Shown here: positions 10,633 through 46,613 of the stretch, piece after piece
Layout of the letters: each line of letters starts with the position of its first letter
Position numbering within the stretch: position 1 is the first letter of the stretch
Assembly: GCF_029582805.1 (NCBI RefSeq)
Contig: NZ_JAKKUT010000001.1
Span: 62,001-126,000, forward strand
Reading direction: 5' to 3'
Source of the DNA: Candidatus Synechococcus calcipolaris G9
GTDB lineage: Bacteria > Cyanobacteriota > Cyanobacteriia > Thermosynechococcales > Thermosynechococcaceae
Length of the DNA stretch: 64,000 bases
The notes under the pieces: generated by a model
The model's database searches: none
Seen by the model: the letters and a program-made list of their open reading frames with translations, nothing else
What the model was told of the DNA's origin: nothing
Translations under genes and position numbers: made by a program

Positions 10633-10967
10633 GTGAGCTTGACGGTTATTTGACGGTTATTTGATGGGAAGGGGAGTTTTATTAATGCTGCCACTAAAAG
10701 TACTGGTATATAAGGGTTTTAGCTCTGCGCTTTATTTGATGGTTATTTGACTCTATCTGCTTAACACTGGGTGGCAGCGGACGGTTGAAAACCGCTTGTG
10801 CTGCGTTAGAGGTTATCTGCTGCTGCACTTTAGCCGTTAGACCTGAGAATGCCACATTTTCTGTATGTTGGCTGACAAATCTTTGGGAAGAGGGAGGCAC
10901 GTTGCAGCATTTGTGGCAATATTGGGAATCATAGCGATCGCAGAGTAATCGACTCAGGGGGGCGGTT
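10633..10967. other. Spacer with short direct repeats and an attC-like hairpin
   Basis: Directly after the AlbA_2 gene, GACGGTTATTT occurs twice in tandem and GATGGTTATTT once more about 90 bases later. The attC-like site follows. The open frame on the minus strand here is only a by-product of the hairpin and has no protein features. Confidence 0.5.
10759..10842 (+). repeat. attC-like recombination site A
   Basis: Starts with GCTTAAC (RYYYAAC, R'' box form) and ends with GTTAGAC (GTTRRRY, R' box form), 84 bases apart. The arms between pair imperfectly (GGTGGCAGCGGAC against CTGCTGCTGCAC), leaving unpaired bases as in integron attC hairpins. It sits directly behind the accessory AlbA_2 gene, where a cassette attC would be. 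No integrase is visible in the window. Confidence 0.55.
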
Positions 10968-33170: not shown

Positions 33171-33202
33171 ATGAATCTATGACATCAAATCTATGACATC
33201 AA
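33171..33202 (+). promoter_or_regulatory. Chained start codons with 14-bp tandem repeat before gmk
   Basis: ATCTATGACATCAA is repeated exactly (33175-33188, 33189-33202). ATG 33171 reads ATG-AAT-CTA-TGA, ATG 33179 reads five codons to TGA at 33194, and ATG 33193 is the gmk start. Each stop overlaps the next start (CTATGA). AGGGG precedes the first. Confidence 0.55.
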
Positions 33203-33777
33203 ACGAGGCAAACCCAACAACCGGCCAAGTCATTGTGATCACGGGCCCCAGTGGGGTTGGCAAGGGCACTCTCCTGCGGCAACTCTGTAGCCAGGATGAA
33301 AATCTATGTCTTTCTGTCTCGGCCACAACCCGCGCTCCCCGGCCCGGAGAAATTGACGGGCAGCATTATTACTTTGTCACCCTTGAAAAGTTTCGCACCA
33401 TGATTGCCCAAGGGGAACTTTTAGAATGGGCAGAGTTTGCCCAACATTATTACGGTACGCCCCGCGCCCCCCTAGAGATGCTGATCCACCAAGGCAAAGA
33501 TGTCATCCTTGAAATTGAATTAGAGGGGGCTCGCCAAGTCCGAACAACGTACCCTGATGCGCGGCAAATCTTTATACTCCCCCCCTCCATGGCGGAACTG
33601 GAGCGGCGGATCCGAGATCGGGGGCAAGATAGTGAGGCGGCGATCGCCCGTCGCCTGGCCCGGGCCCAAACAGAAATTGCAGCGGCGGCGGAATTTGATT
33701 ATCAACTGGTGAATGATGATCTTCACCAAAGTTTACAGGAGTTAGAGTCGATTATTGCTCAATGCAGACATCCTTAA
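33193..33777 (+). CDS. gmk: Guanylate kinase
   Basis: Phosphorylates GMP to GDP. P-loop GPSGVGKGT, then SVSATTRAPRPGEIDGQHYYF (GMP binding) and LEIELEGARQVR, all canonical. 194 aa. The start is ATG 33193, the last in a chain of overlapping start/stop codons. Confidence 0.95.
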   Translation: MTSNEANPTTGQVIVITGPSGVGKGTLLRQLCSQDENLCLSVSATTRAPRPGEIDGQHYYFVTLEKFRTMIAQGELLEWAEFAQHYYGTPRAPLEMLIHQGKDVILEIELEGARQVRTTYPDARQIFILPPSMAELERRIRDRGQDSEAAIARRLARAQTEIAAAAEFDYQLVNDDLHQSLQELESIIAQCRHP

Positions 33778-33880: not shown

Positions 33881-33982
33881 TATTGCAGATGAAGATGTGA
33901 TTAGGACACTTCCAAATGGGAGTCCCTTGGTTCACAGGCTTCTCAGAGGCAAAATGTCCTAACACTCTACTCACTTGCAATA
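33881..33982. mobile_element. 98-bp MITE, copy 2, with TA target duplication
   Basis: 33883-33980 is identical to the copy at 8917-9014 and is flanked by TA at 33881-33882 and 33981-33982. The exact identity of two copies 25 kb apart implies recent movement or gene conversion. Confidence 0.8.
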
Positions 33983-34080
33983 TATCCCTCTTTTATCACT
34001 TCAGGATATCCAAACGTATTTGCGCTGTTTTAGCCCACGAAAAATCAAGCTTTGACCCCAGTTTAAAAGAAGAGGGATAT
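33982..34080. repeat. 99-bp inverted-repeat element next to the MITE
   Basis: ATATCCCTCTT at the left end and its exact complement AAGAGGGATAT at the right end enclose a 77-base interior. The left tip abuts the TA flank of MITE copy 2, so the MITE landed at the edge of this element. The interior also has the palindrome GGATATCC. Its right tip overlaps the end of attC-like site D. It may be a different MITE family or a large terminator hairpin. Confidence 0.5.
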
Positions 34081-34162
34081 CATTCCTGTTGAGCAGATGA
34101 AAACAACTTGTGCAACCAACACGAAATCTTCTGGCAGTCCGCTTCAACAGGGTTGTTAGCTT
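34076..34162 (-). repeat. attC-like recombination site D
   Basis: On the minus strand it begins AGCTAACAACC, continues CCTGTTGAAGCGGAC, and after a ~40-base middle has TCTGCTCAACAGG, which pairs with the first arm with a few bulged bases. It lies 25 bases behind the stop of the nuclease gene, the expected cassette position. The R' box (GATATCC instead of GTTRRRY) is degraded. Confidence 0.45.
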
Positions 34163-34186
34163 ACGGCAACAATCCGGCTATTTGAA

Positions 34187-34855
34187 CTAGAGATAATTGG
34201 CAATTGCCATCCTTTTAGAAGCTTGAATAGCCCAGCGAATAAAATAACAAAAATTTAATTCATTTGAAATGATAACATCCAACATTCCGAGAGTTATAGG
34301 TACAATGTATACCCCTTCACTTCTATGAAAGATACTCCCTTTTTGCGTATTGAAATCACCGATTTCCTCAATAGCGGTCTCCTTAAAGGATGGACCAATA
34401 AAAAAACTTAACGCCCTCCCCTTGCAGGCTCTCCAGCATGTTTTCTCAATTTCTGGCCTTGCTACTTTGCTAGTCTGGTAATTCTTACATTCCCCTATCA
34501 AACATGAAGGGCAATCTCCAATAAGACCCCAAACTTCATAAATGGTCTCATCAACAGTGATTAGATTAATATCTATCTGTCCTAAAGCTGTATCTCTATT
34601 TGTGACAGATAAAGAACTAATAAGTGACATTCTATTGAATAGACTCTTTAGTAAATCCTCCAAAAGATCGCCTTGCTCTTTAGTGTTTTTGAAGCTTCCA
34701 GCTTTTATTCTTGTTAATATCTCCTTCTCACTCTTATAGCCATCATCACAAATAAAAGTATTGTTGCAAGTTAAAACGTCCCTTTTACGGTTATCATTTT
34801 GAATAGACTTATTAATAAAATCTTGAATATCTAATAAAAATTTGTTACAATTCAT
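34187..34855 (-). CDS. PD-(D/E)xK nuclease-like protein, third gene of accessory operon
   Basis: 222 aa. A restriction-endonuclease-like core is visible: Glu66 in EQGDLLEDLL, Asp95 in GQIDINL, then Glu122-x-Lys124 in LIGECKNY, so it probably cuts nucleic acid and resembles Mrr-type restriction nucleases. DCPSCLIGEC adds three closely spaced cysteines. The C-terminal third holds no motif I know. It starts two bases after the stop of the small winged-helix gene. AT-rich composition and lack of HIP1 sites mark it as acquired. Confidence 0.6.
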   Translation of the reverse strand: MNCNKFLLDIQDFINKSIQNDNRKRDVLTCNNTFICDDGYKSEKEILTRIKAGSFKNTKEQGDLLEDLLKSLFNRMSLISSLSVTNRDTALGQIDINLITVDETIYEVWGLIGDCPSCLIGECKNYQTSKVARPEIEKTCWRACKGRALSFFIGPSFKETAIEEIGDFNTQKGSIFHRSEGVYIVPITLGMLDVIISNELNFCYFIRWAIQASKRMAIANYL

Positions 34856-34857
34856 AA

Positions 34858-35163
34858 CTATCTCGTACTCTTGATTTCGAGAGGCTGAATATAAATTGCA
34901 ACTTCGAGTTGACTATTAGGATATGTGAATTCACATGATTCACAGTAAGTCGTTGTATTACCTGGATCAACCCGATGAAATTCAGAGCAGAAATACCTTT
35001 TAATAACTTCAATCTCCCCAGATGCTTGTAAATCTAAAAATGTTTTGTAAAGCTCGCCTTCTATTACATGGCAATAATCGGCTATATCAGAAATACCTAT
35101 CAAACCACCTTGATAGCGTTCTTCAATGTACTCACGAACACAATTAGCCGCTCTGGGTTCCAT
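34858..35163 (-). CDS. Small winged-helix plus zinc-binding protein
   Basis: 101 aa. Residues ~5-55 look like a winged helix (CVREYIEERYQGGLIGISDI, then LYKTFLDLQASGEIEVIKR). Next comes Cys59-x3-His63 and Cys74-x2-Cys77, a likely zinc site. The C terminus is a short beta strand region (QLEVAIYIQPLEI). It overlaps the upstream 359-aa gene by 20 bases and is followed by the nuclease gene two bases on, so all three are one translationally coupled unit. A DNA- or partner-binding adaptor role is inferred. Confidence 0.6.
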   Translation of the reverse strand: MEPRAANCVREYIEERYQGGLIGISDIADYCHVIEGELYKTFLDLQASGEIEVIKRYFCSEFHRVDPGNTTTYCESCEFTYPNSQLEVAIYIQPLEIKSTR

Positions 35164-36223
35164 CTTGGATATTGTCAGAAAGTTTAATTAAATACACAAT
35201 GTATGTTACCACCTCTTCAGGTACATATTCCCTGAAAAATAATCCTCCAGTTTTTGTAATTGAAAATGAATATTTTTTCTGTTCATAGCTAAATGATATG
35301 TTACCTTTAACTGGATTTTTAACCAACTCTTTCAGAATCGCCTTAGCTTCAGGATTAGTCTCTTCATCTAAATCCCTCAAATCTTCAAGAGTAGCTTCAA
35401 ACATTGATGCCTTAATTCCAGGAAAAGGAGAGGCAATACGTTTATAGGCACCATCAAGTGCCCTCTTTAACGAATCGATTTTAACTATTTGTCTAATGGG
35501 TTTGACTAAGCTTTTTTTAGCATCCTCAGCCTCACCAATAAAATAGCTCCTTGCCGCTGAGAAGGGATTGTCATTATCCAAAATTGCAGTTGATACAAAA
35601 TCTCGCACAACCTGATAAGGACCTCGAATTTCTAATATGTCTAGGTCTTTTCTAATTATGATTTCAAATTCTGTGGTTGGATGAAAAGATACAACCTCTA
35701 GTCCATTTAGTTCTTCTTTCTTTTCTTGTCTAGAGCCAACTAAAAATATTGCTTGGCTAGGGAAAGAGACTTGTTTAATTTTAGTCTGAGATTCTTTTCC
35801 TTTACTTCTTGGTTGATTAACCTCTAAATACTTTTGATTAAGTTCAACAATGGCATGCAGATAAAAGGTATAGTTTTGCCCCATGAAACGATTGTTTTCC
35901 CATGATCTGACCCAATCAACTATGCTGCTAGGATCTGCTAAAGATATTAAATAGTCTGCCTCGCGGGCTGTTAAAACAGCATCTCTAAGAAAGTTCTTAA
36001 ATTTTCCTACAAATTCAAAGTTTTTATTCTTTATCTGATACTCAAAAATGACTCTACTTACAATCTCATCCCGACTTTTGATCTTACTGAAGTCTAAATC
36101 TTGCTCCCAAAACTTTACCAATATTTCTTTTGGTAATCGGCTTAATCTTCTAGCCAGCAAATGCTCCTTAAACTCAAGCTTAGATTGATTTTTGAGAGAG
36201 GATTTTGAACTTGACGTGCTCAT
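35144..36223 (-). CDS. Unknown 359-residue protein, first gene of accessory operon
   Basis: I do not recognise this family. Residues ~15-130 are helical and basic (LARRLSRLPKEILVKFWEQD), with no P-loop, no catalytic motif and no membrane segment. The middle contains beta strands (FEIIIRKDLDILEIRGPYQV). The C-terminal ~80 residues (GNISFSYEQKKYSFSITKTG) look like a compact beta domain and could sense or bind a ligand. The gene leads a three-gene operon with a zinc winged helix and a nuclease; a sensor role is inferred from position. Confidence 0.5.
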   Translation of the reverse strand: MSTSSSKSSLKNQSKLEFKEHLLARRLSRLPKEILVKFWEQDLDFSKIKSRDEIVSRVIFEYQIKNKNFEFVGKFKNFLRDAVLTAREADYLISLADPSSIVDWVRSWENNRFMGQNYTFYLHAIVELNQKYLEVNQPRSKGKESQTKIKQVSFPSQAIFLVGSRQEKKEELNGLEVVSFHPTTEFEIIIRKDLDILEIRGPYQVVRDFVSTAILDNDNPFSAARSYFIGEAEDAKKSLVKPIRQIVKIDSLKRALDGAYKRIASPFPGIKASMFEATLEDLRDLDEETNPEAKAILKELVKNPVKGNISFSYEQKKYSFSITKTGGLFFREYVPEEVVTYIVYLIKLSDNIQDGTQSG

Positions 36224-36398
36224 TTAATGCTCTAAACTAAAAGGGTAGATTTTTTAGTGGATTCAGTATTACCAATCTAGCTTGGTAGCTTAGGCATCAG
36301 TGTAACTCACCATTGACTTAATGAGCCATATGTATATGGTTCAGAACAAAGCTATTTCTGCAATGCCCCATCATAAGAGCAGCCAGCTAACTATGTTG

Positions 36399-37529
36399 TC
36401 ACCTGAAGGTTGAGGAATAAACCGGCAGCGTGAAATGAAAACAACTCCCCTTGCCCAGGGTGGAATCGACCCAAATTTGACCATAATGGGCTTGGATAAT
36501 TTGCCGACAAAGGGACAAACCAATGCCGTAGCCTTCAATGGCGCGATCGCGATCGAGGCGAACCGTATCCCGGAAAATTTGTTCCTGTTGCTCAGCAGGA
36601 ATCCCTGGCCCCGTATCACACACGGTAATTTGCAGTTTTTGGGTCATGCGGTGCAGCAAACTCAGATGAATCGAGCCTTTCTCTGGGGTATATTTTGAGG
36701 CATTGTCCAAAAGATTGATCAGAACTTGGCGGATGCGATCGCCATCCCCATAGACAAAGGGAGCATCTAGGGGAATATCACTGGTCAATTGCTGTTGTTT
36801 TTGGGCAAACCCATCCCGAAGTTGCTCCAGGGTCTCTTGACACAGTTGCTTCATATCTAACTGGCGAGGGCAAATATTTAGGCTAGCACTGGGGCCCCGC
36901 GCCGCTAGGAGTAAGTCCGTAATCATGTCTCCCATGGTTTGACTTTGATTGCGGGCATGGGTTAACAATCGCAAAATCATCCCCGGGTCTAGGCGAACAC
37001 CGGACTCCGCCGACCAATTTGTTTCCAGGGTTTCTAGGGCAATTCCTAGGGCCGTCAGAGGATTACGCAATTCATGGGCAAGCAGGGCAATGATGCGATC
37101 TTTGAATAGGAGTTGGGCCTCCAGAACCTCCACTTGGCGGCGTAGCTTGAAAGACTCATCCTGGACACGGACAAGTTCCATGGTGCAGTCCGACTGCGAC
37201 GCGGCGGTTTTTTGCACATCCGCCTGGAGAATTTCCGCCACTTCCCGTTGCCAGCGGGGCCACCAATAATCTACCTTGTGGATGAGTTTACGGCCGGTCA
37301 AGGTCTGTCGGGGTTCGGGGCGAATTTTAATCAAGGCTGGGGTGGCAACCAGCTTATATTCTTCCAAGAGGTAGGGCTGCTCGCCAATGGGAACAATTTT
37401 TAGATCAAAATCAAAGTTAGAGTCCAAGGTATACAGATGGGACTGAATTTCGGCGGCTTCTTCTTCATCCCCAGGACGATTGGCCACAAATAAAAGAAAG
37501 CCTAGGGGAGGTTGGGGGGTGATCTCCAT
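36399..37529 (-). CDS. sasA: SasA, clock-output sensor kinase
   Basis: Histidine kinase that is stimulated by KaiC and phosphorylates RpaA. The N-terminal ~100 residues form the KaiB-like domain that binds KaiC; a coiled linker leads to the HisKA domain with His152 in LLAHELRNPLTAL. The HATPase domain is intact (QVLINLLDNASKYTP, VCDTGPGIP, GYGIGLSLCRQI), unlike the kai-adjacent kinase. 376 aa, ATG 37529. It lies ~11 kb from kaiABC. Confidence 0.95.
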   Translation of the reverse strand: MEITPQPPLGFLLFVANRPGDEEEAAEIQSHLYTLDSNFDFDLKIVPIGEQPYLLEEYKLVATPALIKIRPEPRQTLTGRKLIHKVDYWWPRWQREVAEILQADVQKTAASQSDCTMELVRVQDESFKLRRQVEVLEAQLLFKDRIIALLAHELRNPLTALGIALETLETNWSAESGVRLDPGMILRLLTHARNQSQTMGDMITDLLLAARGPSASLNICPRQLDMKQLCQETLEQLRDGFAQKQQQLTSDIPLDAPFVYGDGDRIRQVLINLLDNASKYTPEKGSIHLSLLHRMTQKLQITVCDTGPGIPAEQQEQIFRDTVRLDRDRAIEGYGIGLSLCRQIIQAHYGQIWVDSTLGKGSCFHFTLPVYSSTFR

Positions 37530-42766: not shown

Positions 42767-42880
42767 ATTGTTAATTTAGAATAGCCCAAGCTCAGCTTTC
42801 TAGAAACCACGTGCTTACAAGGGAAGAATCCAAACGTCAAAAATCTGTCCAGATAGATATGCCAGATCAAGTTGAATTTG

Positions 42881-42966
42881 GTCTAACAATCCCGTTGCAG
42901 ACCGACCGAATTAAGCGAGTTGGCGAGTCCAAAAGTTATTAGCGGCGGGTGAACGGGGCGTTAACT
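42881..42966 (+). repeat. attC-like recombination site E (degenerate)
   Basis: Starts GTCTAAC (fits RYYYAAC) followed by AATCCCGTTGCAGACCG, and ends GGCGGGTGAACGGGGCGTTAACT, where GTTAACT differs from GTTRRRY at one base. CCCGTT pairs with AACGGG and the outer boxes pair partly. It follows leuC by ~115 bases, with no intact cassette gene left in front of it. Confidence 0.4.
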
Positions 42967-43139
42967 CCCATAAAAATGCTTCTGGTGCATACGGAGATGA
43001 AGGATGGGGCTACTTTATGATGGCAGGTGCTGCTAGTGCGGCTGAATCAGACGACCAAGAGCGGTATGTGAACCTTGATCCTGCGACTCGGCAGGTGACT
43101 CTTCGATATCGAGTACGGTTTAAGACTGACTTGATCTAA
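42915..43139 (+). pseudogene. C-terminal remnant of an unknown gene
   Basis: A 74-codon open stretch without a plausible start, ending in a normal stop. The translation (ASGAYGDEGWGYFMMAGAAS, later NLDPATRQVTLRYRVRF) reads like genuine protein rather than random sequence. I do not recognise the family. An in-frame ATG exists at 43015. It is probably the tail of a gene truncated during rearrangement. Confidence 0.35.
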
Positions 43140-43361
43140 GAGTTTTCGCTTGAGAGGCTCTGGGGGCAAGGACTCCATGAAAAAATATGCAGTATAACAC
43201 TCCTTAAATTTAGCGATATAACTTTGATTAGTAAAGGCTTGTAGCCTTTCTAAGCTAAAGTGCATATCCGCTTGACTCTGTATACCATTCGCTTTCTACT
43301 ACACCAAAAACCTTGCTTGTTAAGGGGGTTGGATAAAAATGAAGTTTTGTATATGCTCAAT

Positions 43362-43466: not shown

Positions 43467-43678
43467 CAATTTTTGACACCTGTATATTCATGTGCTAAAG
43501 TGGGCTATGTCTTTATAAATAGAGAATTCTAGCTTTCTATTGCTAAATTAGCTAGGCTGCTTATCGCTCTCTAATCAATAGTTAGCCTGCTCAAAACCTC
43601 TTATCCTCTAGATGCGCCAAATCTCTGTAGTTGGGCTATGATCTGCCTAATATAGATATCTAACTGCAATCCGCGCGT

Positions 43679-45674: not shown

Positions 45675-45680
45675 GCACAG

Positions 45681-45765
45681 GCTAACAATGCGTTGGTGCG
45701 GACGGTGTGAAGGTTGTTGGTAAGAGTTCAAGGTTACCTGTCGCCGCACAACTTCACCGTGATCT
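45681..45765 (+). repeat. attC-like recombination site B
   Basis: GCTAACAATGCGTTGGTGCGGAC opens the element and GTCGCCGCACAACTTCACCG closes it; GTTGgTGCGG pairs with CCGCACAAC, leaving extrahelical bases as in attC sites. The final box (GTGATCT) is off the GTTRRRY consensus. It begins seven bases after the vapC-like stop. Confidence 0.45.
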
Positions 45766-45887
45766 AACCCATTTTTTGGCTTGGGACGTACTCAAAGGTT
45801 ATTTTCTGGTATTTAAGGATGCTCACTCTTGCAGCCCTGGTATGACTGAGGTATAACCAAAGAATAGAACTTTAAGCTAAGACCGTT

Positions 45888-46462: not shown

Positions 46463-46470
46463 CAAAGCCA

Positions 46471-46553
46471 GCTAACAAGTCGATGGAGCGGTGAATATCA
46501 GTTTCTTGTTGCGTTTCAGAATGATTCATCGCTGCTCATTTTAGTTGTTATAC
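46471..46553 (+). repeat. attC-like recombination site C
   Basis: GCTAACAAGTCGATGGAGCGG begins the element; GAGCGGTGAAT pairs with ATTCATCGCTGCTC, with bulged bases, and it ends TTAGTTGTTATAC, where GTTATAC differs from GTTRRRY at one base. It starts nine bases after the mazF-like stop. Confidence 0.5.
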
Positions 46554-46613
46554 GGCTCAATTTTCTGGTAGGTCTTTGCCATCGATCGTGCTGTCAACTG
46601 CGTAACTTCACCA

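Follow-up and report, generated by a model that had tools for sequence, protein, structure and literature searches.

A compact set of three genes

Three closely packed genes in the genome of Synechococcus calcipolaris G9 raise two questions, namely what kind of genetic unit they form and what their products do together. They were studied in a window of 64,000 nucleotides (the whole stretch of DNA that was analyzed). ORF calling in the window confirmed the trio on the minus strand with a span of 34187-36223. The coordinates bore out the preliminary description, in which the genes were said to be joined by a 20-base overlap and a 2-base gap: genes 1 and 2 overlap at 35144-35163, and genes 2 and 3 are separated by positions 34856-34857. 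The three genes are as follows.

35144..36223, minus strand, gene 1: ORF of 359 aa, candidate sensor or recognition subunit; also the first gene in the two other trios described below
34858..35163, minus strand, gene 2: ORF of 101 aa, with an inferred winged-helix-like N-terminus followed by Cys59-His63-Cys74-Cys77
34187..34855, minus strand, gene 3: 222 aa, predicted PD-(D/E)xK nuclease resembling the BspD6I/FokI-type catalytic subunit, with E66, D95 and E122-x-K124

When 390 Cyanobacteriia were searched with a profile, only three genomes had strong matches, namely this one, the filamentous cyanobacterium LEGE 07170 and Pseudanabaena. The Pseudanabaena copy, a 5'-truncated nuclease gene with 61% identity, had been missed by the first protein-only cyanobacterial search and was reached via the phage-family model phrog_6350; gene 1 was searched for in the Pseudanabaena genome and was not detected. 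Using an alignment of the window and Pseudanabaena nucleases, complete trios were found in LEGE 07170 (nuclease 89%, small protein 83% and 359-aa protein 89% identical) and in a Rivularia metagenome assembly (45%, 35% and 41%, respectively). All three trios share one gene order, and the LEGE 07170 trio has a 20-base overlap and a 2-base gap, both identical to those of the window. The trio was whole and in the same order in three of the four species in which any part of it was detected. The three genes thus travel as a set, and they are not found apart in most genomes.

Plasmid, phage and viral-contig searches with the proteins tried turned up no relatives. Three weak genome matches were rejected as chance or unrelated, L002 and L003 for the nuclease and L005 for the 359-aa protein. 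Judged from these searches, which were pattern-based for the collections and may miss distant relatives, the trio family appears to be rare, patchy and so far cyanobacterial. In Rivularia, the neighbors of the trio are HsdM and HsdS of type I restriction and a Cas4-like PD-(D/E)xK gene; further genes nearby are presumably mobilization genes (relaxase- and TraD-like). A long imperfect palindrome lies directly 3' of the Rivularia trio (L015, 8740-8890), which is not an attC by the covariance model described below.

The ends of the unit and its attC site

The limits of the unit were obtained by comparison with LEGE 07170. The two copies are homologous at ∼88-90% from G|TTAGCT, 8 bases past the stop codon of the upstream kinase gene, to AACAGGAATG|, while the flanking genes are wholly different in the two genomes. 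The features of the locus are listed here.

34081..36390, minus strand, whole integron-type gene cassette: 2310 bp with three genes and attC, delimited by the sharp homology ends against LEGE 07170 and by the reconstituted attC
36385..36390, minus strand, cassette start TTAGCT: 3' half of the R' core site G|TTAGCT
34074..34162, minus strand, attC site, from a covariance-model match and its fold: R'' AGCTAAC at 34161-34155, L' side GCTCAACAGGAATG at 34094-34081
33982..34080, no strand assigned, MITE-like element: 99 bp, directly adjoining the cassette end, its terminal inverted repeats perfect over 11 bp, single copy in the window
36399..37529, minus strand, upstream host gene: histidine kinase, just past whose stop codon the cassette begins
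33193..33777, plus strand, host gene on the opposite side: ORF convergent with the kinase gene

We take the kinase to be SasA-like and the ORF on the opposite side to be guanylate kinase-like. A homologue of the kinase is present in 27 of 29 family genomes. The composition of the cassette agrees with the earlier observation of an AT-rich, HIP1-free region: its G+C content is 35.6% versus 49.4% for the window, and the HIP1 motif (GCGATCGC) occurs 83 times in the window and not once in the cassette. Promoter-like sites were no commoner than in shuffles.

The sequence at the 3' end of the cassette is AGCTAACAACCCTGTTGAAGCGG...GCTCAACAGGAATG, and the attC match extends 7 bases beyond the cassette end. 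The TTAGCT at 36390-36385 is complementary to the R'' element AGCTAAC at 34161-34155; the G at 36391 is the host base. When the 3' end is joined to the 5' TTAGCT, as in a circular form, an R stem of 8 bp (AGCTAACA/TGTTAGCT) is restored, together with an L stem (CCTGTTGA[A]GC/GCTCAACAGG) that contains a single extrahelical base. The circular joint of the LEGE 07170 copy folds in like manner. These paired R and L stems and the extra base are the defining marks of attC. The 5' end of the cassette carries the R' half with the crossover point G|TT, and the LEGE 07170 homology ends at the same base.

To score these sites, a covariance model (R1) was built from seven other aligned attC sites of the S. 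calcipolaris genome, with the trio site excluded. The input sites had been chosen by a short motif, of which the reversed control gave 0 matches in this genome. By R1 the trio attC scored 43.7 bits (E 4e-10) and that of LEGE 07170 45.1 bits (E 1.6e-10), E-values that are rough owing to a short calibration. The model is not promiscuous, since at E <= 1e-4 it found 30 sites in this genome, 0 to 21 in seven other genomes, and 0 in the Thermosynechococcus-like relative G004. No attC of the R1 type was found at the Rivularia trio or at the Pseudanabaena remnant, so the trio is not always cassette-borne.

Taken as a whole, the unit is almost certainly a mobile integron gene cassette. It is scarcely credible that it is not one and that the common ends reflect chance or a different transposon: in the window the right end indeed lacks a regenerated R' (GATATCC where GTTRRRY is expected), but the ends fit the attC model independently in two genomes, and the R' half is expected to be lost on insertion at a non-attI site.

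In the preliminary description a MITE and an attC-like hairpin had been placed as flanks on one side of the genes. The attC is real, but it is the terminus of the unit itself and not a flank. The segment described as a MITE likewise exists, with the inverted repeats listed above, but it occurs once in the window and is at most a candidate MITE. In LEGE 07170, an element of 202 bp, whose terminal inverted repeats are perfect over 12 bp, lies just upstream of the cassette copy (L013, 6241-6442). Small inverted-repeat elements thus adjoin the cassette in both genomes, the 99-bp element of the window being at the other end.

Horizontal transfer and purifying selection

LEGE 07170 and this genome belong to different families. 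Between them, dS was 0.33 for gene 1, 0.24 for gene 2 and 0.61 for gene 3, whereas a vertically inherited MoeB-like gene (660 bases, protein identity 91%) had a dS of ∼2.1, near saturation. This difference indicates horizontal movement, and the low dS shows that the cassette is much younger in both lineages than their split. The cassette is thus found as a discrete mobile unit, in the genome of another family, between different flanks and with low dS. Purifying selection has acted on each of the three genes since the transfer, with dN/dS values of 0.15 for gene 1, 0.37 for gene 2 and 0.08 for gene 3. Just downstream of the LEGE 07170 cassette there is a partial duplicate of the start of a gamma-glutamyltransferase-like gene (L013, 8830-9062 and 10330 onward).

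Integron remnants in the genome

The genome contains ∼30 attC sites and broken intI remnants, and at least three remnants of integron platforms were recognized. The first is an internally deleted intI gene that adjoins a TIR-domain cassette, the second an attI-like stretch with a cassette array, and the third lies within the window at 42.9-46.6 kb, with the following features.

42880-42966, 45679-45766 and 46469-46554, plus strand: attC sites
43047-43265, minus strand: truncated intI start
near 43540-43590: attI-like stretch

The cassettes that follow this attI-like stretch encode a DUF4145-like protein with a 187-aa ORF, a PIN (VapC-like) pair and a MazF/PemK-like pair. A lone attC of 48 bits (E 2e-11) was found elsewhere in the window at 10758-10843 with no clear cassette gene attached. 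Among the other cassettes of the genome are genes for a TIR protein, an HEC-04-like ATPase, a DUF4238 protein, PIN- and MazF-like proteins and acetyltransferases. At L019 (5234-7858), the internally deleted intI (146 aa) stands beside a TIR-domain gene and a 210-aa ORF, and these two genes, which share one attC, are likely a two-gene defence cassette. At L034 (1216-2758), a 479-aa ATPase (PADLOC HEC-04, E 3.6e-55) is directly followed by an attC and is a candidate defence cassette. By R1, the genomes G000, G002, G006, G009, G018, G509 and G452 have 6 to 30 dispersed attC sites each and G004 has none; from these site counts, dispersed cassettes look common in this cyanobacterial group.

The genome yielded no intact intI, so the trio cassette may now be immobile here. 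It is solitary, between two convergent core genes, and such a lone position would be expected of insertion at a non-attI (attG-type) site, a process reviewed in PMC12444791 and PMC12901181. The exact empty site was sought through the kinase gene in relatives and was not found; the two relatives read have other genes after the kinase.

The predicted gene products

Searches of Pfam, PADLOC and NCBIfam gave no match above cut-off for any of the three proteins, in keeping with the earlier remark that no known system with this trio came to mind. The same held for PADLOC 2.0.0 models with the LEGE 07170 and Rivularia homologues, and for toxin and antitoxin families in Pfam and NCBIfam. Rfam gave nothing credible, and PMC7159879 contained no death-domain or three-gene system that matches the trio.

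The product of gene 3 is very probably a nuclease. E66, D95, E122 and K124 are invariant in the four nuclease sequences. In the AlphaFold2 model (pLDDT 75.9, pTM 0.82), E66 is on a helix (58-73), D95 on a strand (92-98) and E122 and K124 on a further strand (118-125), and the order of the elements fits the alpha-beta-beta-beta-alpha-beta core of PD-(D/E)xK enzymes. The assignment and the four residues, both proposed before from the letters alone, were thus recovered in the model and in every relative found, and structure prediction did return a nuclease fold.

Foldseek found no match to this model at E < 0.001, and the likeness to BspD6I therefore rests on a second-look aligner, in which background was at ∼Z 7. 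The best solved-structure matches were restriction nucleases: the small subunit of R.BspD6I (2p14, Z 10.3, 149 residues aligned, rmsd 3.3), the BspD6I large subunit (5lhc, Z 10.2) and FokI (2fok, Z 8.1). Lower in the list were the modification-dependent MspJI and AspBHI, and EndoMS and a Pyrococcus repair nuclease at Z 6-7. Neither phmmer nor a PDB profile search detected sequence homology to the BspD6I small or large subunit. The nuclease also matched phrog_6350 weakly (E 2e-4) across its core, unlike the Rivularia homologue, which had no match at E 0.05, and general membership of the PD-(D/E)xK superfamily may explain this match.

The small subunit of BspD6I cuts only when the large subunit is DNA-bound and active (PMC6261011). 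As the 222-aa protein has little room for a recognition domain, a partner-dependent nuclease would be the natural reading. Like the trio nuclease, the catalytic subunit of R.BspD6I (2p14) is a PD-(D/E)xK protein of ∼200 aa with no DNA-recognition domain and is encoded downstream of its partner (PMC6261011). Unlike this heterodimeric type IIS enzyme, the trio has no detected sequence similarity to it, no methylase and no recognized partner that matches the nickase large subunit, as far as the poor model of the 359-aa protein (pLDDT 47.7) allows a judgement; it also has an extra protein of the winged-helix/zinc type.

In that poor model of the 359-aa protein, residues 16-88 resemble CENP-N weakly and residues 88-238 resemble CENP-N/L, RnlA and triphosphate-tunnel proteins weakly (Z at most 6.4 in both cases), which we regard as leads only. 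Staphylococcal nuclease matches of this protein in the PDB were insignificant. In the 101-aa protein, Cys59, His63, Cys74 and Cys77, which had been picked out before, are invariant in the three copies, and its sequence suggests a winged-helix N-terminus. The roles of gene 1 as sensor and gene 2 as adaptor are a tentative assignment that we consider rather less likely than not.

Possible functions of the cassette

We propose that a single integron gene cassette carrying a three-gene operon has spread horizontally among cyanobacteria, and that its gene 3 encodes a BspD6I/FokI-type catalytic nuclease predicted to have no recognition domain of its own. Such a nuclease would need a partner for aiming it or switching it on, as the BspD6I small subunit does, and this part would fall to the 359-aa protein, either by itself or together with the 101-aa winged-helix/zinc protein. 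Because the cassette has no methyltransferase, the nuclease would have to be kept inactive or be aimed at a feature of foreign or abnormal DNA. The role of the cassette is probably, though by no means surely, defence against phages or plasmids, like that of other defence genes stored as integron cassettes. This reading draws on the presence of a nuclease with no methylase, on the mobility of the cassette and the company that it keeps, and on the report that integron cassettes are rich in anti-phage genes (PMC12409362). The more specific proposal, namely a new defence system made up of these three genes, with a 359-aa recognition or sensor protein, a 101-aa adaptor and a BspD6I/FokI-like nuclease inside one cassette, is plausible, although we would put it at somewhat less than even.

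The trio may instead be a compact restriction system for modified or marked DNA, type IV-like and with no methylase, in which genes 1 and 2 read and gene 3 cuts. The nearest folds are restriction enzymes, MspJI and AspBHI being included lower down, the cassette has no methyltransferase, and integron cassettes are known to carry reduced type II and type IV restriction genes (PMC12409362). No SRA, EVE or similar recognition domain was matched in the 359-aa or the 101-aa protein, and we consider this version somewhat unlikely; it is a special case of defence and not its opposite.

Two-ORF cassettes often encode toxin-antitoxin pairs (PMC8618304), and VapBC- and MazEF-like pairs occur in other cassettes of the window. 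The trio could by analogy be a stabilizing module that holds the cassette in place, with the nuclease as toxin and the 101-aa protein, perhaps with the 359-aa protein, as antitoxin or repressor. It has, however, three genes, of which the largest comes first and is conserved as well as the nuclease, no toxin-antitoxin family was matched, and Pseudanabaena retains a partial nuclease gene in a genome in which gene 1 was undetected, all of which makes such a module improbable. A set for DNA repair or recombination that benefits the host under stress and does not act against invaders is less probable still: PD-(D/E)xK folds serve repair too, as the EndoMS and Pyrococcus matches illustrate, but the patchy, mobile spread, with strong matches in 3 of 390 Cyanobacteriia, is unlike that of housekeeping repair.

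Comparison with known cassettes

The trio cassette resembles integron cassettes in general, attG singletons included (Loot et al. 2024, as cited in PMC11023631 and PMC12901181), in its 3' attC with R''/R' and L''/L' stems, its extrahelical base, the crossover at G|TT and its dispersed insertions. Cassettes usually contain one ORF and sometimes two (PMC8618304), in contrast to the three genes in 2.3 kb found here. Larger defence systems of more than two genes are reported to be absent from integrons in the surveys covered by the review PMC12409362. The defence cassettes described there for sedentary and mobile integrons (Darracq et al. 2025 and related studies) are small self-contained units, and the trio is a candidate for such a unit among defence-like cassettes; it differs from them in being cyanobacterial and in that its defence role is that of a candidate. 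The element is of a known kind, and the conserved three-gene cassette is a real extension of it.

Studies of Vibrio point to integrons as stores of small anti-phage genes. A single cassette with a conserved nuclease operon of three genes would widen the two-gene limit, and cyanobacterial integrons have been little studied. The lone cassette beside a core gene offers a natural case for insertion outside an integron platform. As the trio is nameless in Pfam, NCBIfam and PADLOC, a new system could be defined from a single DNA segment of 2.3 kb. If the proposal is true, multi-component immune systems, beyond those of one or two genes, move as cassettes in cyanobacteria.
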